Of a stretch of 58,485 nucleotides of DNA, positions 9,813-31,965 are shown in pieces. The translations under genes and the position numbers were made by a program. Position 1 is the stretch's first letter. Each line of letters begins with the position of its first letter. The notes under the pieces were generated by a model. It did no database searches, was not told where the DNA came from, and worked only from the letters and a program-made list of their open reading frames with translations. Source of the stretch: Mariprofundus ferrooxydans PV-1 (GTDB taxonomy: Bacteria; Pseudomonadota; Zetaproteobacteria; Mariprofundales; Mariprofundaceae); the NCBI RefSeq assembly GCF_000153765.1, contig NZ_DS022294.1, positions 1,086,678 to 1,145,162 of the forward strand, in the 5' to 3' direction.

Positions 9813-12149
9813 TTAGCTCGTCAGACTGGCGAACAGAGTCGGCAGCTTTTCGGGCAAGCGGTCGACATGGTCGACAACCGTGTAATTGTTGGCACCGAAG
9901 ATACGTTTCACGTAGGCATCGGCATTCGCATCCAGCGTGAGACAGTAGCTCATCACCCCTCTGGTGTGCAGCTCCTCGACAGCCTTGCGCGTATCATGGC
10001 GCAGATGTTGCGGATCACGCTCATCAATATCCGCAGGTTCACCGTCGGTAACGATCAGCAGCAGCTTGCGCCGCTCAGGCTGCCTGAGCAGATGCTCGCC
10101 TGCATGGCGCATCGCTGCTCCCATGCGGGTGGAGAGTCCGCCCTTCATGCCGGCTAACCGCGCTTTTGCCTCATCGCCGAAGGTCTGGTTAAAGTCCTTG
10201 AAGCGGAAATACTGAACATCATGACGCCCATCGGAGGCAAAGCCGTGGATAGCAAACGGATCACCAATACCGTTGATCGCTGTAGCGACCAGCGTGGCTG
10301 CCTCTCTGGTCAACTCCAGCACGGTTTTCTCGGAGCCCTCCACCATCTCATTGGTGGACTCCGACAAATCAAGCAGCACCGTGACCGCCAGATCGCGGTT
10401 TTTGATCACATTGCGCATCGTGATGCGCGGGTTGGGCTGCTCACCCATGCGGATGGCGATCATCGCATCGACTGCTGCATTCAGATCAATCTCGTCGCCG
10501 TCTTCCATATTGCGTACCCGCTGCACACCCTCGGGTGAGAGCAGATCGATAATCTGCTTGATGCGGTGCGCTACAGGCTTGTATTCGACAAGGATCTTCT
10601 CCACCGTTTCCGGGTCACCCTTGGTCGGTCGACGCTCATATACCGTGGCCCAGTCGGGGCGAAACAGCTGCACCTGATAGTCCCACTCCTGATAATGGAA
10701 CGGATCGGAGACAGGCTCCCTGCCCCACATCCGGTTAAAACTGGTAGTTGCCTCACCGGCATCCTCGTAAGGGAAGAACTCGGTCGCGCAGATCCACACC
10801 TCCTGGGCATCGTCGCCGGCCAACTCGCAATCGACCTCATTGGCCATCTCGACGGCCGAAACATAGCGACGCACCTGACGTTGACTGGCCGGAATATACT
10901 CCAGCCCGTGCTCGGCAAAATTAAATGCCTCAAACTCCCAGACAAAACGGTTATCGTCACGGTAGGGAATGCGGATCGACTGCAGTATGCGCAGGCTCGG
11001 CACCTGTTTGCGCTGCACAAACAGATGGTAGAGATCCATGCCCAGGTGCCAGGAAAAACTATTATCGAGTTTTTTCAGCTCGATACCATCATGAAATTTT
11101 GAAGCCAGAAACTCCAGCTCCTCGTCGTCGCAACTGATGCTGCTGTCGAGCAGCATGTGGGCAAAGTGCTCCAGAGTCACAATACTCTCATGCTCCACCG
11201 CAGCACTGTATTCAGCGGCAAACAGGCGGCCCCATAACTGTTTCAGGCCGGGAAAGTCCTGCATGGCGCAATACTCGACGCGTGCATCCTCAATCAGGGC
11301 GATAAAAAACATCTGCGCCTGTGAGAGCTCCTCTGCGGAGATTGCCGAACGGGTATAGTGCATATGTGCGGCCAGATGTGCCGCCTGAGCACGATAAAGC
11401 TCCACGCCGGAAACATCACCAACATCATCCAGCGCATCGGGCAGGTGCATGACATGGTGTTCGATATAGGGTTTGAAACCTTCATGATCGGCAGCTGCAG
11501 GACGCAGAAAGAAGTCACGTCCCCACAGCGCACGCAGGTAGAAATTCAGCTTGCGCTGGGTATCGATAAACAGCGTGCCGCGCCGCTCCTGTTGCAGCAT
11601 CTTTTTACTGTCGGATGTCTCCAGCGCGAAATATTTCACCAGGTTCTGCAGATCGCGCCGGTAGGCCTCGGCGCCGAAGTTGGCCCAGCGCCTGAGACCG
11701 GAAAGCGTCAGCTTGGAGAGCAGCTCATCAATATTGGCCAGCATCGGGCGCAGACCGCGCGATGCCTTGGCCGAGATCTGATGCACCAGCGTCAGATAGC
11801 CGCGCAACAATTCCGGATCCCCGAGGCGTCTGGCGGCAGCAGGCAGAGAGGAGAACATCAGTGAGATCACCTCACCCGATGTCATTGAGGAGAGCTTCAT
11901 CGCTGCATGGATACAGTCGCCAATCACATCCTCGCCGCACTCCTTCACAACCTGCGGCATCTCCTGCAGATAGGAGGCAACCAGATCCGTACCACGGCCG
12001 AGCTTGTATAGCCCGCTACCGCCTTCCAGATACTCCTGCAGGCCGGCCGGCGACATGATGCGCGCCGCATCCTGAAGGCTCGATTCGAGTACCTCCTTCA
12101 GCTGCGGTGAGGCTTCGGCAAACTGCTCTCTGTAATCATCCAGATTCAT
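9813..12149 (-). CDS. cbbO: RuBisCO activase adaptor subunit CbbO (vWA domain)
   Basis: A 778-residue protein. The C-terminal von Willebrand A domain spans about residues 590-775 and keeps the full MIDAS site: Asp 594-x-Ser 596-x-Ser 598 (DLSES), Thr 674 in GGLSTRMG and Asp 702 in VTDGEP. The long N-terminal part is helical. In characterised systems CbbO bridges the AAA+ CbbQ hexamer to inhibited form I RuBisCO, which is then remodelled to release tight-binding sugar phosphates. It begins 9 bases after the cbbQ stop. No good Shine-Dalgarno is seen, so translation is probably coupled to cbbQ. Confidence 0.95.
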   Translation of the reverse strand: MNLDDYREQFAEASPQLKEVLESSLQDAARIMSPAGLQEYLEGGSGLYKLGRGTDLVASYLQEMPQVVKECGEDVIGDCIHAAMKLSSMTSGEVISLMFSSLPAAARRLGDPELLRGYLTLVHQISAKASRGLRPMLANIDELLSKLTLSGLRRWANFGAEAYRRDLQNLVKYFALETSDSKKMLQQERRGTLFIDTQRKLNFYLRALWGRDFFLRPAAADHEGFKPYIEHHVMHLPDALDDVGDVSGVELYRAQAAHLAAHMHYTRSAISAEELSQAQMFFIALIEDARVEYCAMQDFPGLKQLWGRLFAAEYSAAVEHESIVTLEHFAHMLLDSSISCDDEELEFLASKFHDGIELKKLDNSFSWHLGMDLYHLFVQRKQVPSLRILQSIRIPYRDDNRFVWEFEAFNFAEHGLEYIPASQRQVRRYVSAVEMANEVDCELAGDDAQEVWICATEFFPYEDAGEATTSFNRMWGREPVSDPFHYQEWDYQVQLFRPDWATVYERRPTKGDPETVEKILVEYKPVAHRIKQIIDLLSPEGVQRVRNMEDGDEIDLNAAVDAMIAIRMGEQPNPRITMRNVIKNRDLAVTVLLDLSESTNEMVEGSEKTVLELTREAATLVATAINGIGDPFAIHGFASDGRHDVQYFRFKDFNQTFGDEAKARLAGMKGGLSTRMGAAMRHAGEHLLRQPERRKLLLIVTDGEPADIDERDPQHLRHDTRKAVEELHTRGVMSYCLTLDANADAYVKRIFGANNYTVVDHVDRLPEKLPTLFASLTS

Positions 12150-12158
12150 GACAGATGC

Positions 12159-12971
12159 TTATTCAACAAAAAATGTCTGCACTGCAGCTTCAAGTGTCTC
12201 GTACATATCCGGATCGTCGGTCAGCGGCGTCACCAGCGTCATCATGCAGGCAGCCATCGGTTCAACGCCTTCGGCGATCATATTGCCCGCATAGACCAGC
12301 AGACGGGTGGAGATACCCTCGTCCAGACCGTGTCCCTTGAGATTTCTGGCGCGTTGGGCGATCTGCACCAGCTTGACCGCAATTTCACTCTCCACGCCGG
12401 CTTCTCTGGCGACAATATCGGCCTCTGTCTCCGCTTGCGGGTAATCGAAATTGAGCGCACCGAAGCGCTGCTTGGTGGACTGCTTCAGATCCTTCATCAG
12501 GCTCTGATAACCGGGATTATAGGAGATCACCAACTGGAAATCGGGATGCGCTTCAATCAGCTCGCCCTTCTTGTCCAAAGGCAATGTGCGACGATGATCG
12601 GTCAGAGGATGAATCACCACGGTCGTGTCCTGACGCGCCTCAACCACCTCATCGAGGTAGCAGATCGCACCGATACGGGCCGCCGTGGTCAGCGGGCCGT
12701 CCTGCCATTTGGTACCATCCTTATCGAGCAGGAAACGCCCGACAAGGTCGGAGGCGGTCATATCTTCATTACAGGCTACGGTAATCAGCGGCCGGCCGAG
12801 CTTCCAGGCCATGTACTCTACAAAACGGGACTTACCGCAACCGGTCGGCCCCTTGAGCATCATAGGCAGACGACGGGCGTATGCCGCATTATAGAGTTCC
12901 ACCTCATTGCCAACCGGCCGGTAGAAAGGCTCGGCTTTTACCCTGTATTGATCGGTATTCATCTCGCTCAT
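12159..12971 (-). CDS. cbbQ: RuBisCO activase AAA+ ATPase CbbQ (MoxR family)
   Basis: A 270-residue AAA+ protein with Walker A GPTGCGKS (residues 41-48), Walker [11 protein letters not shown] (about 103-112) and a sensor-1 Asn in VISYNPGY. It forms the ATP-driven ring of the CbbQO activase that reactivates form I RuBisCO. It is separated from cbbS by 130 bases that contain a strong stem-loop, but is otherwise in the same operon. ATG 12971 has AGAGGA about nine bases upstream. Confidence 0.97.
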
Positions 12972-13049
12972 CTCATCTTTCCTCTGCTGTTCGCATTGTG
13001 GTCATATTAATTACTTCTCACTCCGGCCAGGGGCCGCAGCGATAGCAGC

Positions 13050-13087
13050 GGAGCGGGCACCAGAAACCGTGTTCTGCCACCCGCTCC
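13050..13087 (-). promoter_or_regulatory. Stem-loop in the cbbS-cbbQ intercistronic gap
   Basis: An 8-bp perfect outer stem GGAGCGGG/CCCGCTCC, a short internal loop, then an inner 5-bp stem CAGAA/TTCTG around a six-base loop. No T run follows, so it is not a simple terminator. It could stabilise the cbbLS message 3' end or attenuate read-through, which would give more RuBisCO than activase. Confidence 0.6.
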
Positions 13088-13101
13088 TGCCACCTTGTGT
13101 G

Positions 13102-13458
13102 TTACACCGGCTTGCCGCGGAAAATGACCATCTCGGCCCCTTTCGACTGGGCAAAGTTGTCGTAGCCAACCAGACGCACATGGTTGTTCGGATGCGCCTT
13201 ATGGCAGGCCTCGGCTTCGCCGAGAATCCGATCCACGTCGGTCTCACCGAATAACGGCAGCTTCCACATATACCAGTAGTGGTCGAAGGCGCTTTCCGGT
13301 TCGGTGTGCTCGACAGCCGGGTTCCAGCCGCGGCTGACGATATACTCCACCTGCTTACGAATGCGATCGGCATCCATCTCCGGCAGGTAGGAGAAGGTTT
13401 CGAATTTACGGCTTGAGACATCGCTCAGGCTGGATGGGTAATCTTGCATTTCACTCAT
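13102..13458 (-). CDS. cbbS: RuBisCO small subunit, form I
   Basis: A 118-residue small subunit that caps the L8 core to form L8S8. It has the family pattern [20 protein letters not shown], a central [13 protein letters not shown] and the late [15 protein letters not shown] and IFRGKPV. ATG 13458 has GAGGAA seven bases upstream. It lies 124 bases after cbbL with a small hairpin in between. Confidence 0.97.
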
Positions 13459-13582: not shown

Positions 13583-15004
13583 TTACTTGTGGGCCACGTC
13601 GAGCTTGTCCACGGTGTCGAATTCGAACTTGATCTCTTTCCATGTTTCCATCGCAATCTTCAGCTCCGGACTGCTCTCGGCGGCTGTGGTCAGAATATCC
13701 TTGCCCTCTTTTTCCAGAGCACGGCCCTGATTTCGCGCTTCCACACATGCCTCAACCGCTACACGGTTGGCTGCAGCACCTGCAGCATTGCCCCATGGGT
13801 GACCCAGAGTACCGCCGCCGAACTGAAGGACAGAATCATCGCCGAAAATGTTGACCAGTGCCGGCATATGCCAAACATGGATACCACCGGAAGCCACCGG
13901 CAATACGCCTGGCATCGAGCCCCAATCCTGATCAAACATGATACCGCGTGAGCGATCTTCCTTAACGAAGGAGTCGCGCATCAGGTCGATCCAGCCCAGT
14001 GTTGCATCGCGATCGCCCTCAAGCTTGCCCACCACAGTACCGGAGTGCAGGTGGTCGCCGCCGGAGAGGCGCAGCATCTTGGTCAACACGCGGAAGTGAA
14101 TACCATGGCGCGGGTTGCGGTCGAGTACGGCATGCATGGCACGGTGAATATGCAGCAACATACCATTATCACGACACCACTGAGCCAGGCCGGTATTCGC
14201 CGTGAAGCCGCCGGTCAGATAATCGTGCATGATAATCGGTGCGCCCAGTTCCTTGGCGTATTCCGCACGCTTGTACATCTCTTCCGGAGTCGGAGCGGTC
14301 ACGTTCAGGTAGTGCCCCTTGCGCTCGCCGGTCTCAGCTTCCGCCTTGTGGATAGCCTCCATTACAAAGTCGAAACGCTGACGCCAGCGCATGAACGGCT
14401 GTGAGTTGACGTTTTCGTCATCCTTGGTGAAGTCCAGACCGCCGCGCAGACCTTCATAACAGGCACGGCCATAGTTTTTCGCCGAGAGGCCCAACTTGGG
14501 CTTGATGGTACAGCCAAGCAGCGGCCGTCCGTATTTGTTCATCTTGTCGCGCTCAACCTGGATACCGTGTGGCGGGCCATTACATGTCATAACATAGGCC
14601 AGCGGAATACGGACATCTTCCAGTCGCAGCGCACGTACAGCCTTAAAGCCGAACACGTTACCGACCAGCGAAGTAAGCACGTTTACCACCGAGCCCTCTT
14701 CAAACAGGTCGATCGGGTAAGCGATAAAGGCATAGAATGCTTCATCATCGCCAGGCACGTCCTCAATGGCATAGGCACGACCCTTGTAGTAATCCAGATC
14801 TGTCAACAGATCAGTCCATACAGTCGTCCATGTGCCGGTAGAAGATTCGGCTGCCACAGCTGCCGCCGCCTCCTCTCGCGGCACACCCGCCTGCGGGGTA
14901 ATCTTGAAGCAGGCGAGAAAATCGGTATCTTTGAGCTTGTACTCAGGCATCCAGTATGTTTCGCGATAATCCTTCACACCCGCCTGATAAGTTTTTACTG
15001 CCAT
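13583..15004 (-). CDS. cbbL: RuBisCO large subunit, form IA
   Basis: Carboxylates ribulose 1,5-bisphosphate in the Calvin cycle. The 473-residue chain is full length for form I. Lys 168 and Lys 170 in TIKPKLGLS, carbamylated Lys 194 followed by Asp-Asp-Glu ([13 protein letters not shown]), His 287 in HIHRAMHAV and loop-6 Lys 327 in VGKLEGDR are all present. The sequence type ([18 protein letters not shown]) and the cbbQO neighbours, with no carboxysome genes, indicate the IAq branch. ATG 15004 has AGGAG six bases upstream. Divergent cbbR suggests LysR-type control. Confidence 0.99.
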
Positions 15005-21967: not shown

Positions 21968-22471
21968 TCAGAAGCCGGAACGGACGCGCCCCACCGCATC
22001 CGACACCCACTGCTTCTGCAAATCATTCAGCAACCGCGTACGCGACGCATCAATACTGGCAGGCCCGCCGGAGATATAGATATCGCCCTGACGCTGAATC
22101 AAGCCGCTCTGCCACAACATTTTACCGTCCACCTCAAGCATCAGTGCTCCGGAGAAGGTCATGCGGTACTGTGTGGCAATACCCGTCACGTCATAGGCCA
22201 GAGGCACGAAGGCGACCGGCGAAATCCGCACATGCAGTAGCGCATGATGCGCCGCATCATGCACCTGCCCGGCAGCCACCAACTCGTAACGCTCCGATCT
22301 CAGCCGCTGACGCAACATGTCGAGCTGCAATTGATCGGCATTGCCGACAATGGAAAGCGTTCGCACATCGGCAGGGATTGCGCCTGTGCCGCCGCCATGA
22401 CCGACCAGATGATAACCGCAGGAGGTCAGCATCAGCAGTACCGCCATAGTGGCAAAGCCGCGAGCGATCAT
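21968..22471 (-). CDS. lptE: LPS-assembly lipoprotein LptE
   Basis: Plug subunit of the outer-membrane LPS translocon LptDE. ATG 22471 overlaps the leuS stop (ATGA). The signal peptide ends in the lipobox LLMLTSCGYHLVG, the hallmark CGYHL start of mature LptE. The middle has the LRSERYELV and ALLHVRISP segments. The frame is also open further upstream into leuS, but the extra 25 residues would precede the signal peptide. Shows that the cell makes LPS. Confidence 0.93.
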   Translation of the reverse strand: MIARGFATMAVLLMLTSCGYHLVGHGGGTGAIPADVRTLSIVGNADQLQLDMLRQRLRSERYELVAAGQVHDAAHHALLHVRISPVAFVPLAYDVTGIATQYRMTFSGALMLEVDGKMLWQSGLIQRQGDIYISGGPASIDASRTRLLNDLQKQWVSDAVGRVRSGF

Positions 22472-24924
22472 GCCGGTTTGACCACAATATTCAGCAAACG
22501 ACCGGGCACCAGAATCACCTTGACGATCTGCATACCGTCCAGCCACTTATGGATCGCAAAATCGGCCTGTGCCGCCGCCAGCGCTTCATCCTGACCTGCA
22601 TCCTTGGCAATCGTGATCTCTCCACGTTTTTTACCCTGAACCTGCACCACCAGCGTAATCTCATCCTGCTCAAGCGCCGCCTGATCGGCTACCGGCCAGT
22701 CAGCCAGCACGGCCACCTGTTTCATGCCCAACATCTCACCCATTTCACAGGCGAAATGGGGTACGAATGGCGCCAGCATGATGGCCAGCACTTCCACACC
22801 CTCGCGATAGGCCGCCTTGCCGCCCGGTCCAGCAGGTTTAAAATCCTGCAATGCATTGGCCAGCTCCATCTGGGCCGCAATCGCCACATTAAAGGCAAAA
22901 CCATGCTCAAAGGCATGCGTCACGCGCTCAATGGTCGTATGTATTGTGCGGCGCATCAGCTTCACGGCTGCCGCATCCTCATCCCCGTCAGCCGCCGCAT
23001 CGACCCTTTCCAGCAAACGCCAGACGCGCTTGAGAAAACGATGCCCGCCCTCAACGCCGGCATCATGCCACTCCAGCTCTTTCTCGGGTGGCGCAGCAAA
23101 CAGCGTGAACAAACGGGCGGTATCGGCGCCGAAGCGTTCGATGATCGCCTTTGGATCAACCGTATTGCCCTTGGATTTGGACATTTTGGTACCGTCCTTG
23201 AGCACCATGCCTTGCGTCAGCAGATTTTTAAACGGCTCGTCCCCTCCCTGCCCGGAAGTGAACAGGCCGGCATCGCGCATCAACTTGTGATAAAAGCGTG
23301 CATAAAGCAGGTGCAGCACGGCATGTTCAACGCCGCCGATATACTGATCCACCGGTGCCCAGCGCTGCATGGCTGCGGCATCCACCATCGCCTCTCCGTT
23401 GCGCGGACTGGTGTAGCGGTTCATGTACCACGATGACTCCATGAAGGTATCGAACGTATCGAGCTCACGCACCGCCGCTTTACCGCACTGCGGGCAGTCG
23501 GCATGTTTGAAGCTCTCGCATTCAGTCAGCGGCGAAGCCCCGCCTGTCGGCTGCAGGTCGGTCGGTAGCACAACCGGCAACTGATCATCCGGCACCGGCA
23601 CCGCACCGCAATCTGCGCAGTGAATCACCGGAATCGGCGCGCCCCAGTAGCGCTGGCGGGAGACCAGCCAGTCGCGCAAACGGTATTGCACCCGCTCGGC
23701 TCCCTTACCATTCTCGGCCAGCCACTCAATGATCGCCGTTTTTGCATCGGCTGAGGCCATGCCGTCAAACTGGCCGGAGTTGATCAACACACCCGCCTCG
23801 GTAAAGGCCGCTGTCTCTATATCCCAGTCACCGTCAACCGGGGCAATCACCTGTCTGATCGAAAGGCCATATTTGCGGGCAAAATCGTAGTCGCGCACGT
23901 CATGCGCCGGCACGCTCATCACCGCGCCCGTGCCGTATCCCATCAGTACGAAATTGGCCACCCAGACAGGCACAGACTCACCGCTAATCGGGTGGATGGC
24001 ATGAAAGCCGGTCGCCATGCCCTTCTTTTCCATCGTTTCGACATCGGCTTCCTTGGTCGATATTTTACTGCACTCATCCAGAAACAGTGCCAGTTCCGGG
24101 TTGCTTTCAGCCGCCTGCTTCGCCAGCGGATGACCGGCCGCCACAGCCATATAGGTCACACCCATCAGCGTATCGGGACGTGTGGTAAAGATATCCAGCG
24201 TATCGCCCGAGCCTTCTATACCGAAGGAGACTTCGGCACCCGTTGATTTGCCGATCCAGTTGCGCTGCATACCCACCACTTTCTCGGGCCAGCCGGACAG
24301 GCTATCGAGGTCTGCCAGCAGCTCTTCGGCATAGTCGGTAATGCGGATAAACCACTGTTTCAGATTCTTGCGGATCACCGGCGTATCGCAGCGCCAGCAG
24401 ACGCCATCCACCACCTGCTCGTTAGCCAGCACCGTGTGACACGGATCGCACCAGTTCACTTCGGCATCCTGCTGATAGGCCAGGCCTTTCTGCATCAACC
24501 GGGTAAACATCCACTGCTCCCAGCGATAGTAATCGGGATGGCAGGTCGCAATTTCACGCGACCAGTCATAGGAGAGCCCCAGGCGCTTGAGCTGAACGCG
24601 CATCTGGTCGATATTGGCATAGGTCCACTCGGCCGGCGGACGATTGTGCTTGATGGCGGCATTTTCTGCCGGCAGACCGAAGGCATCCCAGCCAATCGGG
24701 TGCAGCACATTATAGCCCTTCATGCGCTTATAACGCGCCACAGCATCACCCAGGCAGTAGTTACGCACATGACCCATATGCAGATTTCCCGATGGGTAAG
24801 GAAACATCACCAGACAGTAATAGGGTTCCCTCGAATCATCATTGAGGGCTGAATCCATATCGGATTCGGCCCATCGCTGCTGCCATTTGGCTTCAATGTT
24901 CTGTGCTTCATAACGTCCGGACAC
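22468..24924 (-). CDS. leuS: Leucyl-tRNA synthetase
   Basis: A class I aminoacyl-tRNA synthetase of 818 residues. The HIGH-type motif is GNLHMGHVRN near residue 48 and the KMSKS motif is KMSKSKGN. An editing domain lies between them (TRPDTLMGVTYMAVA) and a zinc-type cysteine set is seen in CADCGAVPVPD. The likely start is a GTG at 24924 with GAGGAG ten bases upstream. First gene of the leuS-lptE-holA-bioA chain. Confidence 0.98.
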   Translation of the reverse strand: MSGRYEAQNIEAKWQQRWAESDMDSALNDDSREPYYCLVMFPYPSGNLHMGHVRNYCLGDAVARYKRMKGYNVLHPIGWDAFGLPAENAAIKHNRPPAEWTYANIDQMRVQLKRLGLSYDWSREIATCHPDYYRWEQWMFTRLMQKGLAYQQDAEVNWCDPCHTVLANEQVVDGVCWRCDTPVIRKNLKQWFIRITDYAEELLADLDSLSGWPEKVVGMQRNWIGKSTGAEVSFGIEGSGDTLDIFTTRPDTLMGVTYMAVAAGHPLAKQAAESNPELALFLDECSKISTKEADVETMEKKGMATGFHAIHPISGESVPVWVANFVLMGYGTGAVMSVPAHDVRDYDFARKYGLSIRQVIAPVDGDWDIETAAFTEAGVLINSGQFDGMASADAKTAIIEWLAENGKGAERVQYRLRDWLVSRQRYWGAPIPVIHCADCGAVPVPDDQLPVVLPTDLQPTGGASPLTECESFKHADCPQCGKAAVRELDTFDTFMESSWYMNRYTSPRNGEAMVDAAAMQRWAPVDQYIGGVEHAVLHLLYARFYHKLMRDAGLFTSGQGGDEPFKNLLTQGMVLKDGTKMSKSKGNTVDPKAIIERFGADTARLFTLFAAPPEKELEWHDAGVEGGHRFLKRVWRLLERVDAAADGDEDAAAVKLMRRTIHTTIERVTHAFEHGFAFNVAIAAQMELANALQDFKPAGPGGKAAYREGVEVLAIMLAPFVPHFACEMGEMLGMKQVAVLADWPVADQAALEQDEITLVVQVQGKKRGEITIAKDAGQDEALAAAQADFAIHKWLDGMQIVKVILVPGRLLNIVVKPA

Positions 24925-25069: not shown

Positions 25070-27889
25070 TCAGCGCCTGCGAATCACAATCAGCTCAACA
25101 ATATGTGCCTGTTGATGATTCCATACAGCAAGGCTTTGCGGATTACCCAACGGATTGATCATGATCTCCAGCTGCCGCAGACACTGGAATTCATGTCGAC
25201 GGGGAAACAGGCGCATGACCACATTCGGCTTCAATACATCGGCAACAATAGCCGTATCAACACGAAAACCAATCCAGATCAATCCTTGCTGCAACAGGGC
25301 GGAAAACAGGTTGGCAGCATCCATATCTGTTGCGTGCTCCGGACAGGGCAGTACATCCAGCGCCATCGGCACGCCTGCATCCAATTCGCCTCTCATCAGA
25401 CTGTCGAGCAGATAGCGCAGAGAGCGATGCATGTCATATACTTCCGGAGACGAGGATGTATACATCAGGTAGGATGTATGCGCAGCATAGGTGCCATAGA
25501 ACTCCATCGGCACCACTACATTCACATCCATATCCAGCTGAAAACGATCCAGCTCCTTCTGCAGCATACGCGCCTGATTACGCGTATCGACAATGGCAAA
25601 CATCTCCGGCCGGCATCCCTCCTCTTCAGCCAGAGAAAAGGTATGTGACAACACCGAGGCCACCATGGCATGCGGTTTTTTCACGACATGAGCAGGTCGG
25701 GATACAATCACCTTGTCTGCACTGCGTACATGCTCGCGCAGTGACTCCATACGTGAAAAGTCCCAACGCCTGATATCGACGGATATCCGCTGCTCCGCCC
25801 CCTCCATATCACTGATACGGCCCTGTACATAATCCCTGGTATCGAGGTGTTCTTCCTTGCTCATGTCATCAAGCAGGGTCACATGGATCGTTTCAAATGA
25901 GCCTAACAGGCGCTTGAGCATCAGCGGCAGCGCGCCAACCCAGCCAACAGCCAGCAGGCGCAGATTCCGCCGCCGCGGCAACAGTGCCGGAACAGAGCCT
26001 GCATCAGGCACGGCCGGCCGTTCGACATTATCCATGTTCAGGCAGTATTCGAACTCACCATAGAGGGTGGCATGATCCACCGCCACGCCCAGCACTGACG
26101 TCACCCGCACATCCGAGCTCAATGCCGTCAGTGGATGCACCTGCAGATCAATATCCGCCACGGCAATCAGAACAACCCCTCGCTCAAAGCAGCGGCGCAT
26201 CATCTCGGTAACCCTGATTGCTTGCGCGTTATCGATAAAAAACCACTCTCCCGACCTTTGGGCGATGCACCCTTTCCACTCCACCACATGCATGCCCGAT
26301 TCATCTTCGCGTTCGGGAATCATCAGGCGGGAAAGCACCTGATCAACATCCTGATATAGCAGTACATTGCGAATCAGGTTGGCACGCATATCCGGTTCGG
26401 AAATCAGCACGGTCGGCTTATTATAATAGCCTGCCTTGTCCCAGCCGACCTGCAACATATGACCGTAGGATTTTAGCCGCGGCTGCACCATGCCCATCAC
26501 CGTATAGGAAACCGCTATATCGGGATTGGCCTGACGGATTGCCAGCAACGAAAACAAATTTTGCGACAACTCTTCAGCAGCACTGAGCGTGTCGTCCGTA
26601 CAGACCAGCGCCTGCCTGGCCGAGCCCAGATTCACCCGCTCCATGGAGTCCGCATCTTCGGTATCACCCCAGCGAAATGTTACCCAGCTTTCCAGCTCTT
26701 CGGGTCGTTTGTTTGTTTCTCCGAGGAACACCAGCTTCAGGCTGGTAAAGCGCTGATCAGACAGCAGCTTCAGCTTTTCAATGATAAACGGCGAAGCACT
26801 GTTCCAGCCGATCATTACCAGATGGTTGGCGATCATCAGCCTTTCATTCCGCAGTTTGGCCATCAGGCCGGAAATAATACTGGAGCCAATACCGATAAAG
26901 AAAGATAGTATAAACATACCCAGCACTACACTAAACACCGAAAACAGCGCCAGATTGCCATCACCCAGCGGGTCACTCACCAGATTGCCTGCCGCCATCA
27001 GCGTGCGAAAGGAAAACCATATCTGCACAAACAGATTATCATCCATCGCCGAGCGCAAGCCATCCTGTGAAAAGTCGAAACCGGTCATCGTGTAATGGCC
27101 CACCACCCCGCCTGTAATCGACAGCATGGCCAGCAACAGAATCACCAGTACAATCTCCTGAGTGTAATCACCTTCCCGGAATACCTTGCCCAGATTGCGC
27201 AGGATCACCATCCATGGTCTGAGCAGCCGCACCAGCCTGACCCCTCGGAGTGCATTTCCGTACGGGATTGAAGTCAGGCCCGGCACCATCACGATGGTTG
27301 CCAGCACATCGACCCCCCAGAATCCCCACTCGACGAGGCGATCCCGCCGGGTTGCAAATGTCATATTTCTGAGCAGAACAAGGCGGATGATCACTTCCAC
27401 GGAAAAATAGATGACAATCCCCCACAGCATCTGCCCTTCAACAAAGAAGGAAAGCATCACTACCAGTGAGATAAACATGCCATAACCGGGCGAAAACATC
27501 AGGCTTTGCATGTCGATATAACGGAATAGTCGCAGCACGCGCAGTAGGTATAGTGCCCTAAGGAAGCGTGCAGCAGCCCCCTCCTCACCCAATATCATTT
27601 GCACATCGAATGCCGTCGCCAGAATTGACAGCAACGCAAGCATGTCAAAAAACAGGAACAGCATGTCAAGTTTCAGGTCCAGCGATGACTTATACGGGTT
27701 GGTTTTGCGTTTAAAGCGCATCAGGCCGGCACGCAATACCAGCTCGCCGATAAACAAAATACTCAAGACAATGGCGATCGCCTGATTACGGGTAAAGGAG
27801 AGCAGAATCAACAACAGCATCAACAACCCATAGCGATGATGCGACATCACCCATTCGGCATAATAATAGAAGCCTGTTCTTTTGCTCAT
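25070..27889 (-). CDS. Ion channel with two voltage-sensor-like modules, one pore and CASTOR/POLLUX-type RCK domains
   Basis: From ATG 27889 (GGAGG five bases upstream; open upstream to 27937) the product is 939 residues. About ten hydrophobic helices precede the cytoplasmic part. Two S4-like helices carry arginine every third residue: R108, R111, R117, R120, R123 and R215, R218, R221, R224. Each is preceded by helices with acidic S2/S3 residues (E49, D75, D82; E165, D194). A single S5-pore-S6 unit follows (about 244-342) with filter-like MAAGNLVSD, close to the CASTOR/POLLUX-type AGN filter. Residues 350-939 hold two RCK/Rossmann-like units beginning NHLVMIGWNSASPF and LRLLAVGWVGALP. Probably a cation channel gated by voltage and a cytoplasmic ligand. 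Confidence 0.82.
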   Translation of the reverse strand: MSKRTGFYYYAEWVMSHHRYGLLMLLLILLSFTRNQAIAIVLSILFIGELVLRAGLMRFKRKTNPYKSSLDLKLDMLFLFFDMLALLSILATAFDVQMILGEEGAAARFLRALYLLRVLRLFRYIDMQSLMFSPGYGMFISLVVMLSFFVEGQMLWGIVIYFSVEVIIRLVLLRNMTFATRRDRLVEWGFWGVDVLATIVMVPGLTSIPYGNALRGVRLVRLLRPWMVILRNLGKVFREGDYTQEIVLVILLLAMLSITGGVVGHYTMTGFDFSQDGLRSAMDDNLFVQIWFSFRTLMAAGNLVSDPLGDGNLALFSVFSVVLGMFILSFFIGIGSSIISGLMAKLRNERLMIANHLVMIGWNSASPFIIEKLKLLSDQRFTSLKLVFLGETNKRPEELESWVTFRWGDTEDADSMERVNLGSARQALVCTDDTLSAAEELSQNLFSLLAIRQANPDIAVSYTVMGMVQPRLKSYGHMLQVGWDKAGYYNKPTVLISEPDMRANLIRNVLLYQDVDQVLSRLMIPEREDESGMHVVEWKGCIAQRSGEWFFIDNAQAIRVTEMMRRCFERGVVLIAVADIDLQVHPLTALSSDVRVTSVLGVAVDHATLYGEFEYCLNMDNVERPAVPDAGSVPALLPRRRNLRLLAVGWVGALPLMLKRLLGSFETIHVTLLDDMSKEEHLDTRDYVQGRISDMEGAEQRISVDIRRWDFSRMESLREHVRSADKVIVSRPAHVVKKPHAMVASVLSHTFSLAEEEGCRPEMFAIVDTRNQARMLQKELDRFQLDMDVNVVVPMEFYGTYAAHTSYLMYTSSSPEVYDMHRSLRYLLDSLMRGELDAGVPMALDVLPCPEHATDMDAANLFSALLQQGLIWIGFRVDTAIVADVLKPNVVMRLFPRRHEFQCLRQLEIMINPLGNPQSLAVWNHQQAHIVELIVIRRR

Positions 27890-28039: not shown

Positions 28040-28780
28040 ATGAAACAACTCAACCGATACCGACGCGTATTGCTGCCGTCGTTGCTACTCATCCTGAGCG
28101 GCTGCGTCACAGCTCAGGACGCCATGGACTCCGACCCGACCGGTGTACTAAAGGCTTTTGCCACAAAAGCGACGGCTACACCGGCAGATCTGATGAATGA
28201 CCGCATGCTGCACGCAGATCAGGCCAGTGACCGAATAAAGGCCAGAAACAGCCTGATCAGTGAATTCATTGAAGACTCAAACCTGGTATGCAACCACCGA
28301 CTTGCCGGCCTGTCCAAACAGATTAAACGCTGGTCGCTGGAATCACACCACCGGGACAAGCTGGCGGCCTTATTGACTGACGGCATGGCACGAAGAACAT
28401 TGGACTACATCAATCCCGATATGGTTCTTGATCAACCCGCTATTGCCGCAGAGCCGAAACAACAACTGGTTGAAGCCATGATCGCCGTCATCACAAAACA
28501 GCGTGAGGCCATTCGAACCACAATGCTGGCGCGCGAAGAGATGGATATTCATCGTTATACACTTAAACAGGCTCTGCAAGATGTGTACACTTACCATCTG
28601 ACATGTTCAGCCGAACTCGGGCTCTCCGGTGTGATCCATAATGCTTCACCGCACATGACACCTGAAGCAAAAAAAGCAACAATCGATTCCCTGATCCAAT
28701 TGCGTCAAACCCTGATCCAGCAAGGAATCAGCACACGCGCAGTACAGAAAAAAATCGATGCCGTGATCATGGCGGATTAA
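28040..28780 (+). CDS. Putative lipoprotein, unknown function
   Basis: A 246-residue protein with an N-terminal signal and lipobox ILSGC (Cys at about residue 22). The mature part is predominantly helical with no recognised domain. Two further cysteines (NLVCNHR and HLTCSAE) could form a disulfide. It is transcribed divergently from the ion-channel gene from a 150-base gap and has no clear operon partner. Confidence 0.7.
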   Translation: MKQLNRYRRVLLPSLLLILSGCVTAQDAMDSDPTGVLKAFATKATATPADLMNDRMLHADQASDRIKARNSLISEFIEDSNLVCNHRLAGLSKQIKRWSLESHHRDKLAALLTDGMARRTLDYINPDMVLDQPAIAAEPKQQLVEAMIAVITKQREAIRTTMLAREEMDIHRYTLKQALQDVYTYHLTCSAELGLSGVIHNASPHMTPEAKKATIDSLIQLRQTLIQQGISTRAVQKKIDAVIMAD

Positions 28781-29276: not shown

Positions 29277-29870
29277 ATGAATGCACGCATCACACAGTTA
29301 ATTGATCAAATCAAACAACTGGAAGAGGAACTAACCAACGAGGTCCAGCAACATGAGGATACGCTGCTGTTTCAACTCAAGGGCAAGAGGGTGGAGTTTG
29401 AGAAAAGTATCAGGCAGGCCCATCGCCGGTTAAAAACCAATGTCTGGGTCTGGTTGGTGGGCGTTCGCCCCATCAATATTATTACCGCTCCGATTATCTA
29501 CAGCATGATTATACCATTACTGATCGTGGATCTGACCATAAGCTTCTATCAGATCAGCTGTTTCCCCATCTACAAAATCACCCGGGTCCGACGTAGCGAT
29601 TATATCGTATTCGACCGCCAGCACCTGGCCTACCTGAATATTTTTGAAAAATTTCATTGTCTTTACTGCAGCTATGCCAACGGACTGGTTGCCTATGTTC
29701 AGGAGATTCTGGCCAGAACCGAGCTCTATTTTTGCCCGATCAAACACGCACATAAATTGCTCGCGACCCACAGGCACTATCGCCGCTTCATGAGCTATGG
29801 CGATGCTGATAACTACCCCGACAGACTCGAAGCCTTGCGCAAAAGTCTGGATGAAAAAGCTGACAGGTAG
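29277..29870 (+). CDS. Conserved membrane protein, unknown function
   Basis: A 197-residue protein. The N-terminal 60 residues are charged and probably coiled coil (IKQLEEELTNEVQQHEDTL). One strongly hydrophobic region at about residues 70-105 makes one or two membrane passes. The soluble end has the conserved-looking pattern FEKFHCLYCSYANGLVAYV and ARTELYFCPIKHA, with a Cys-x2-Cys pair that could bind metal. I recall this pattern from a widespread family without known function. Confidence 0.78.
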   Translation: MNARITQLIDQIKQLEEELTNEVQQHEDTLLFQLKGKRVEFEKSIRQAHRRLKTNVWVWLVGVRPINIITAPIIYSMIIPLLIVDLTISFYQISCFPIYKITRVRRSDYIVFDRQHLAYLNIFEKFHCLYCSYANGLVAYVQEILARTELYFCPIKHAHKLLATHRHYRRFMSYGDADNYPDRLEALRKSLDEKADR

Positions 29871-30228: not shown

Positions 30229-31965
30229 ATGACGACAGAACATATCGCCGATCTCTGCGTGCAGGAGCAAACGCAGGACATTATCGTCTACCACAAGATC
30301 GTGCATCTGGCGCAGCAGCTTGGCATGCCCGAACAGCGAGCCGAACAGCTTGCTGCTTCCGTATCAATTCACAACCGACAGCATCCGGCTGCATCAATAG
30401 CTTGTGACATCGAGAGCGGGCCAGACGGGTACAGGCTGGTCATTTCATCCGGAACATGGCGGGAGCTGGCAAGTCTGCCTGCAGCCCCCGATGCAGCACT
30501 CATCAGGGAGGAGCAGGCATCACTACCGGATATGTCTCTCTCCACCTTATTACAACTGATGCAGACCAGGCACGACGACCTGCAACGGCAGCGTAATTCA
30601 CTGATACAGGAAGTAGATCGTCTGTCGGCCAAGCTACAGCACAATTGCAGAGAGATGGAATACCAGTCCAGACACGACACCCTGACAGGACTGGCCAACA
30701 GACCGATGCTGGCAGAGCGGGCCATGCATGCTTTCCAGATTGCCCGCCGTCAGGCCTTCAAGTGTTGTTTGGTGTTGATGGACCTGAAAAAATTCAAACA
30801 AATCAACGATGCTCTGGGGCAGCAGGTCGGTGACCTGCTGCTGCAGGCAGTGGCCAGTCGCTTCAAGCAGGCCGTGCGCTCCTCCGATACGCTGGCCAGG
30901 GTCGGCGGCAATGAATTTGCCGTGCTGCTGCTCAATAACGACATTGAGCAGGCGGAAATCGTCGCCGAAAAACTGCATCATGCGCTGAATCCATCATTTG
31001 AGATGCAGGGGCATATATTGAACATCGACGTCAGTATCGGCATCGCTGAATTTCCGACTCACGGCGAGGACATCGCGGATCTGATGCAGCGCGCCAACGC
31101 GGCAATGCATCATGCAAAAAACAACAAGATGGACACAATGGTTTATCAGTCACTGCTGGATGAACACAGCCTGGAGCGGCTCTCTCTGTTCAACGAACTG
31201 AATGAGGCCATTACGACCGGAACACTGGAGCTCTATTATCAGCCGCAGGTAGTGACCCATGGTGAAGGCATCCCGTCGCTGGAGGCTCTGATTCGCTGGC
31301 CGCATCCGGTCAAAGGCATGGTCTTTCCCGACAGGTTTATTCCGATGGCCGAGGATTCCGGACTGATTATCCCGATGACATGGTGGGTGCTTGAGTCTGC
31401 CATGGAACAGTGTGCCGCATGGCATCGGGCCGGCTTGCCTGTAACGGTGGCTGTCAACTTCTCCGCCCACTGTCTGCAAGAGGACGATATCGTGCAGCGT
31501 ATTGCCGACTGCATCAAACGACACAACCTGCCGGATCATTCACTGGTACTGGAAATCACCGAAAGCATGATTATGGCCGACCCCCATCAGGCCTCCACGG
31601 TACTGCTGGAGATCGACAAGTTGAAGGTCGATGTATCCATTGATGATTTCGGCACAGGTCACTCATCACTGGCCTACCTCAAGCACCTGCTGGTGGATGA
31701 ATTGAAAATCGACCGCTCCTTTGTCATGGGCATGCACGAACATAAAAATGATGAGGTGATTGTACGCACAGTCATCAGCATGGCCCACAATATGGGCCTG
31801 CGCGTTGTCGCCGAAGGCGTGGAAACCCGACGGGACTGGGATGCGCTGACAGCCATGAACTGTGATCGTATTCAGGGCTATTTTATCAGCCGGCCGCTGC
31901 CGGTAGAGCAAATCACCCGCTGGCTGGAAGCCTTTGTCCGGGACGGGTTGCAACCGGATGAATAG
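30229..31965 (+). CDS. GGDEF-EAL protein, probable c-di-GMP phosphodiesterase
   Basis: A 578-residue soluble protein. An N-terminal regulatory region (about 1-140, with a coiled coil at the end) precedes a GGDEF domain whose signature is GGNEF (residues 226-230) and whose upstream metal motif is MDLKKFKQIND. The Asp to Asn change at the catalytic position predicts no cyclase activity. The EAL domain is intact: E352-A-L, the NFS segment, EITES, DDFGTG, the Lys in DELKIDRS and AEGVET. A phosphodiesterase with a degenerate, possibly GTP-binding, GGDEF regulatory domain is most likely. Confidence 0.93.
   Translation: MTTEHIADLCVQEQTQDIIVYHKIVHLAQQLGMPEQRAEQLAASVSIHNRQHPAASIACDIESGPDGYRLVISSGTWRELASLPAAPDAALIREEQASLPDMSLSTLLQLMQTRHDDLQRQRNSLIQEVDRLSAKLQHNCREMEYQSRHDTLTGLANRPMLAERAMHAFQIARRQAFKCCLVLMDLKKFKQINDALGQQVGDLLLQAVASRFKQAVRSSDTLARVGGNEFAVLLLNNDIEQAEIVAEKLHHALNPSFEMQGHILNIDVSIGIAEFPTHGEDIADLMQRANAAMHHAKNNKMDTMVYQSLLDEHSLERLSLFNELNEAITTGTLELYYQPQVVTHGEGIPSLEALIRWPHPVKGMVFPDRFIPMAEDSGLIIPMTWWVLESAMEQCAAWHRAGLPVTVAVNFSAHCLQEDDIVQRIADCIKRHNLPDHSLVLEITESMIMADPHQASTVLLEIDKLKVDVSIDDFGTGHSSLAYLKHLLVDELKIDRSFVMGMHEHKNDEVIVRTVISMAHNMGLRVVAEGVETRRDWDALTAMNCDRIQGYFISRPLPVEQITRWLEAFVRDGLQPDE

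Follow-up and report, generated by a model that had tools for sequence, protein, structure and literature searches.

The gene at positions 25070–27889 of the window (the whole 58,485-nucleotide stretch of the Mariprofundus ferrooxydans PV-1 genome that was analysed) encodes a channel homologue in which two complete voltage-sensor domains, VSD1 and VSD2, precede one pore module and two RCK domains. It probably belongs to a family of tetrameric cation channels of the Zetaproteobacteria, combining a duplicated VSD with a CASTOR/POLLUX-type core and tied to motility and taxis, within which the window copy has diverged.

Two voltage-sensor domains ahead of a single pore

The reading frame lies on the minus strand, with its ATG at 27889 and its stop at 25070, and encodes 939 amino acids in the order VSD1 (S1–S4), VSD2 (S1–S4), S5-pore-S6 and two RCK domains. 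Homologues were collected in two alignments, A1 with 26 full-length proteins (37–82% identity) and A2 with 70 proteins, the latter including a second, longer class at 16–19% identity; close relatives of the window channel were found in MAGs of Zetaproteobacteria and Mariprofundales, one each. An AlphaFold2 monomer model with A2 as input alignment (mean pLDDT 84, pTM 0.82) showed transmembrane helices in a 4 + 4 + 2 arrangement, a single pore helix and an alpha/beta tail resembling RCK domains. Helices were placed at residues 18–31, 36–63, 70–93 and 103–121 in VSD1 and at 134–147, 153–175, 181–201 and 211–239 in VSD2, followed by S5 (242–267), the pore helix (286–298) and S6 (311–347), with alternating alpha/beta structure to residue 938. 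The initial annotation of this DNA, made without database searches, had proposed two complete voltage-sensor-like domains before a single pore; the ten transmembrane helices and one pore of the model, together with the conservation in the 70 homologues, confirm this layout. The features are:

25070..27889, minus strand: whole gene, for a 939-aa channel homologue with tandem VSDs, one pore and two RCK domains (open frame, full-length homologues at 38–82% identity, dN/dS)
27527..27838, minus strand: VSD1 (residues 18–121), S1–S4 with F46xxE49, R53 and D82 (conservation, models, PDB profile matches to Kv1.3/KCNQ sensors)
27521..27583, minus strand: S4 of VSD1 (residues 103–123) with R108, R111, R117, R120 and R123 (kept in 66–70 of 70 homologues)
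27173..27490, minus strand: VSD2 (residues 134–239), S1–S4 with F162xxE165, R169 and D194 (conservation, model, sub-threshold Pfam Ion_trans)
27173..27259, minus strand: S4 of VSD2 plus S4–S5 linker (residues 211–239) with R215, R218, R221 and R224 (R215 and R218 in 70/70)
26849..27166, minus strand: pore domain, S5-pore helix-S6 (residues 242–347; model helices, profile alignments to KvAP and bacterial CASTOR/POLLUX)
26984..26995, minus strand: filter-like AAGN (residues 299–302; most paralogues, among them that of the same genome, have DPGN at the equivalent position)
26030..26842, minus strand: RCK1 (about residues 350–620), with a CASTOR-type 'NHxxxxGW' start (profile, model, structure comparison)
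25076..25972, minus strand: RCK2 (about residues 640–938; profile, model, structure comparison)

Voltage-sensor domains carry, as standard charge-transfer features, an F-x-x-E motif in S2, an aspartate in S3 and an arginine at every third residue of S4. Gating-charge centres were present in both sensors, comprising F46/E49/D82 with five S4 arginines in VSD1 and F162/E165/D194 with four in VSD2. Within A2, residues F46, R53, D82, R108, R111 and R120 of VSD1 were invariant (70/70) and E49 (69/70), R117 (69/70) and R123 (66/70) nearly so; in VSD2, E165, R169, D194, R215 and R218 were invariant (70/70) and F162 was found in 50/70. The acidic S2 and S3 helices that had been noted ahead of each S4 (E49/D82 and E165/D194) are accordingly retained in nearly all 70 homologues. 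The arginine spacing described for both S4 helices, one at every third position, holds for that of VSD2 (S4b: R215, R218, R221, R224) but fails at one position in that of VSD1 (S4a), where Tyr114 forms a gap in the series R108, R111, R117, R120, R123. Chance spacing of the arginines is ruled out by their conservation over the 70 homologues.

VSD1 and VSD2 were homologous across S1–S3 (hhalign probability 97.6%) and thus derive from an internal duplication. The best PDB match of a VSD1-only profile was Kv1.3 (E 2.9e-4), with further matches to a Kv1.2 chimaera, KCNQ, Kv2.1 and HCN4 and an alignment spanning S2–S4; nearly all of its 49 PDB matches were voltage-gated channels, and the relation to NaChBac/Nav was weak by sequence. 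Pfam Ion_trans matched 13 of 38 isolated VSD1 sequences (best E 1.3e-4) and remained sub-threshold in the window copy. Folded alone, VSD1 formed a four-helix bundle (pLDDT 83, pTM 0.73), and both here and in the whole-protein model the first arginine helix was the transmembrane S4 of a four-helix domain. A topology with two voltage-sensor folds, on which the earlier proposal depended, is therefore supported by the models, the Kv profile matches and the homology between the two sensors.

Structure comparison of VSD1 was less decisive. VIA-align matched it to KCNQ2, VSD4 of NavAb-Nav1.7, Ci-VSP and the S1–S4 domain of TRPM8 at Z 8.8–10.5, the VSDs of KCNQ2, Nav and Ci-VSP scoring 8.8–9.8, with some Cys-loop receptors at similar Z, and Foldseek alone, with VSD1 as query, gave no significant match (best E 0.57). 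Since Z values of 8–10 lie in the range that unrelated helical bundles can reach by chance, the assignment of VSD1 as a putative voltage-sensor fold relies mainly on sequence as the stronger leg. A non-VSD helical hairpin is not favoured in view of the VSD1–VSD2 homology, the four-helix model and the Kv profile matches, although the Foldseek result was not significant and the VIA-align scores were middling. That both S4 helices respond to membrane potential is inferred, as no currents or voltage dependence were measured.

Gating ring, pore and filter

The cytoplasmic tail had been described as resembling the tandem RCK domains of CASTOR/POLLUX, which is borne out by both sequence profile and fold. 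Although phmmer with the single window protein found nothing useful in the PDB and profiles were needed for matches, the A1 profile retrieved CASTOR (6o6j, E 9.8e-4), DMI1 and BK; the CASTOR match was in register at the RCK1 start and at the C-terminal end, and the alignment with BK covered VSD2-S5-S6-RCK1. VIA-align of the model ranked the CASTOR gating ring 6o7a at the top (Z 28.8, 482 residues, rmsd 3.8 Å), followed by DMI1 (Z 25.6) and then Slo1 (Z 23.7), and with Foldseek the top ranks were taken by full-length Slo1 (7pxe, E 7e-17, whole-length) and the CASTOR ring.

Family databases were less informative. No NCBIfam family matched the window protein, and Pfam Ion_trans covered residues 158–339 at 24.3 bits, below the cut-off of 25. 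The Pfam domain Castor_Poll_mid (PF06241) was matched neither by the window protein nor by the other 25 members of A1, and a search of the window's own genome, likewise without a match, was uninformative, since the control set gave none either; the canonical bacterial CASTOR/POLLUX-like protein L087 (635-aa frame, in G377) scored 99.8 bits. For lack of a match of its own the family is not filed under Castor_Poll_mid; it is a relative of CASTOR/POLLUX with a core of the same kind, not a member. Control of the RCK ring by a cytoplasmic ligand, either an ion or a nucleotide, is inferred, and no ligand was measured.

The profile alignment of the pore domain reached KvAP 133–336, and the family pore also aligned with that of L087, where MDPGV corresponds to xDPGx in the family. 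The filter motif of the family consists of DPG and a variable next residue, often N, and its aspartate was present in 63 of the 70 A2 proteins (as DPG, once as DPA); the remaining seven, including the window copy, had AAGN. The filter-like AAGN singled out in the initial annotation is thus a true property of the window copy but particular to one subclade, with DPG elsewhere. The family aspartate corresponds to D265 of CASTOR, whose filter reads A-D265-S/A-G-N-H-A and whose currents were abolished by the D265N substitution (PMC6697748). The filter of the window clade is without the aspartate of the CASTOR/POLLUX type (ADS/AGNHA; DPG in bacteria). A K+-type TVGYG motif was absent from the family, and a K+ channel is rejected on this ground. 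Conduction of cations other than K+ via the DPG(N)-type filter is inferred; no current was measured.

Distribution, motility operons and the window copy

Two classes could be distinguished. Class I proteins have about 940–1000 residues and retain the four S4b arginines, and class II proteins, of about 1000–1700 residues, retain all VSD1 arginines but have lost R221 and R224 of S4b, which makes VSD1 the more conserved of the two sensors. The C-terminal extension of the class II relatives gave no convincing Pfam match. Related bacterial proteins with tandem sensors, for which the initial annotation had suggested a survey, were found in Zetaproteobacteria, with most of the key residues kept in the 70 homologues, even at 16–17% identity. 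Channel matches were obtained in 56 of 78 zetaproteobacterial genomes, and no tandem-sensor channel was found in about 320 other Pseudomonadota genomes, where the matches were a pore-RCK protein without VSDs in G377 and a weak single-VSD match in G330. The two phylum-wide Pseudomonadota samples probably drew the same genomes and are not independent. Within the samples searched the family is restricted to Zetaproteobacteria; other phyla were not searched in depth. None of the plasmids or viral contigs searched gave a match to the family, and a phage or plasmid origin is rejected on this basis.

The genome of M. ferrooxydans PV-1 encodes a class I paralogue (L103:8554-11406, minus strand; G000:C4:1372572-1375391) with 47% identity to the window copy and a TDPGN filter. 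It is located on one strand in the order fliF, fliG, fliH, fliI, fliJ-like, FlbB/MotE-like, channel, fliK, flgD, flgE, where the 150-aa fliJ-like gene was named by position and size. With 20 kb of context available, class I loci were found in a flagellar operon in 8/12 cases and in a cheY-cheA-cheW-MCP cluster in 2/12, and some class I copies lie outside motility operons. All eight class II loci (L115–L122, e.g. L117:7438-11037, minus strand) had an adjacent MCP gene and seven had cheY-cheA as well, in the order MCP-channel-cheY-cheA-cheW-cheB-cheR; in several, the channel stop overlaps the cheY start by 4 bases.

The presence of the channel also followed that of fliF. Among the 78 genomes, 51 had both and 19 neither, the eight discordant ones having fliF only (3) or the channel only (5; Fisher p 7.5e-11, uncorrected for phylogeny and counting incomplete MAGs). 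The joint pattern recurs inside several genera (14 genera of the same family) and therefore does not reflect one single loss. In one of the five channel-only genomes the channel is a 32-residue remnant with a stop codon (G073:C53:195-290), and no fliF was found in that genome. In G007 and G011, both complete, single-contig and from the same genus, fliF is present and a channel of either class is absent; the flagellum thus does not need the channel, and the two genomes are natural exceptions that lend themselves to comparison. Membership in these operons indicates a shared process and not the mode of channel action: the family belongs to motility, and a role in swimming is inferred. For bacteria, a voltage-gated channel in motility and chemotaxis is described for NaVBP of alkaliphilic Bacillus (Ito 2004, as cited in PMC4225499). 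The initial annotation had overlooked three points: that the family is linked to flagellar and chemotaxis operons, that within the samples searched it is confined to Zetaproteobacteria, and that the window copy has lost the filter aspartate.

Within the family the window copy is a derived paralogue; it lies outside the motility operons, and its filter has changed from DPG to AAG. The seven members of its AAGN clade were monophyletic (support 100) on a long branch of 0.8 changes per site, and no flagellar or chemotaxis neighbours of this clade were seen in the fetched flanks, which were short for some. The dN/dS of the window copy was 0.05–0.18 over all domains where it could be calculated, and 0.05–0.08 in the pore; the low values in every domain indicate purifying selection and rule out a pseudogene or decaying copy. 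Two neighbouring genes were compared across relatives:

22468..24924, minus strand: leuS, next gene downstream of the channel (synteny only in the two nearest relatives)
30229..31965, plus strand: GGDEF-EAL gene (a 48%-identical homologue directly flanks a channel paralogue in some relatives)

Homologues of the GGDEF-EAL gene lie directly beside a DPGN channel in G025 and G067, and the 48%-identical homologue adjoins a channel paralogue at L014/L050/L106. Cyclic di-GMP commonly controls motility, and these neighbours are a weak hint at c-di-GMP. A putative lipoprotein gene (28040–28780, plus strand) and a gene for a 197-aa protein without Pfam match (29277–29870, plus strand) keep their place next to the channel in the nearest relative (L021/L126). 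In G061, a DPGN and an AAGN channel are encoded head to tail (G061:C127:7302-10109 and 10309-13140; L127), an arrangement that would suit a heteromer. Elsewhere in the window, a RuBisCO large subunit gene (13583–15004, minus strand) fits an autotrophic iron oxidiser.

Proposed function and relation to known channels

The channel would assemble as a tetramer with two VSDs per subunit and thus eight per tetramer, a stoichiometry that is inferred. Both S4 helices would respond to membrane potential, with VSD2 coupled to the pore via a normal S4–S5 linker and VSD1 packed outside VSD2, where it may add charge or bias (from a monomer model, the place of VSD1 in the tetramer is unknown), and the RCK ring would add cytoplasmic ligand control. 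Because genes for its relatives form part of flagellar and chemotaxis operons, the family would most likely serve to couple the energised state of the membrane with flagellar motility and taxis, as energy sensing by microaerophilic iron oxidisers. As far as we know, the mechanism by which Zetaproteobacteria perform taxis along O2/Fe(II) gradients has not been established. A stronger version, in which two working sensors per pore subunit read membrane potential or proton motive force, together with a ligand signal, into swimming as an electrical branch of taxis, can be put forward only tentatively.

Having left the motility operons and exchanged DPG for AAG, the window copy probably has altered selectivity or acts as a regulatory partner subunit. 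It is rather doubtful that its clade as a whole consists of non-conducting or altered-pore regulatory subunits that co-assemble with the DPGN paralogue, the tandem VSDs sensing without a pore of their own. Such a role would agree with the loss of the filter aspartate in 7/7 clade members, neutralisation of the equivalent CASTOR D265 having left no current (PMC6697748), with the DPGN paralogue usually being carried by the same genomes (head to tail in G061), and with the long branch of the monophyletic clade. However, of all parts of the window copy the pore is under the tightest constraint, to a degree that a dead pore would not require, and D265 was probed only by a change to Asn, in a plant channel.

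A different objection concerns VSD1, which could be a true VSD fold without being a gating sensor, serving instead as an Hv1-like proton pathway or a structural or docking module, with VSD2 or the RCK ring alone gating the pore. VSDs occurring on their own are known to conduct protons or to drive enzymes (Hv1, Ci-VSP), and VSD1 is N-terminal to a complete 6TM unit, without a direct pore linker; yet it is VSD2 that loses R221 and R224 in class II, where the VSD1 arginines are kept, so that VSD2 appears as the dispensable sensor, and we consider this explanation unlikely. Another alternative, a CASTOR/Slo-like channel for ordinary osmotic or ionic homeostasis that is co-transcribed with motility genes by accident, would fit with bacterial RCK-regulated channels usually serving ion homeostasis and with the window copy and some class I copies being outside motility operons. 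It is very unlikely given that motility contexts of two separate kinds, one with the cheY overlaps, are found in two deeply diverged classes, and that in most lineages channel and fliF were lost jointly. A motility-linked channel family with a duplicated VSD remains the preferred reading, and the presence of DPGN and AAGN paralogues within one genome offers a natural filter-mutation experiment.

Compared to known systems, the family shares the gating-ring fold, the 'NHxxxxGW' start of RCK1 and a related filter with CASTOR/POLLUX/DMI1, which are plant nuclear Ca2+ channels, and with their bacterial relatives. It differs in having two full VSDs before the pore, whereas four transmembrane helices are predicted for CASTOR, the last two forming the pore, and canonical bacterial CASTOR/POLLUX proteins have pore helices only; the missing Castor_Poll_mid match and, in the window clade, the absent filter aspartate set it further apart. 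The order VSD-pore-RCK1-RCK2 is common to Slo1/BK and the family, but BK combines S0 and a single VSD with each pore and has a K+ filter; in the family a second complete VSD takes the place of S0. More than one VSD per polypeptide is found in two-pore channels (TPC) and four-domain Nav/Cav channels, where each VSD has a pore module; in the window channel two VSDs share a single one. To our knowledge, the known one-pore channels have one voltage sensor per pore module, and no channel in which two VSDs serve one pore module has been described. In NaVBP a single VSD is combined with a Nav filter, without an RCK ring.

No tandem or extra VSDs on one pore were found described in the full-text open literature (subscription papers were not covered), and nothing on point about Zetaproteobacteria channels was found in open full texts. 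NaVBP/NaChBac resembles the family as a voltage-sensor channel linked to bacterial motility (PMC4225499). With two conserved sensors per subunit, the family would provide a natural route to studying cooperation between sensors and to finding out if gating is possible for a sensor that lacks a direct S4–S5 linker. The operon and co-occurrence evidence makes it possible to test in Zetaproteobacteria, in concrete terms, whether membrane potential is linked to flagellar behaviour. The parts of the channel are of known kinds; as far as could be tested, their combination and its placement in motility operons are new.
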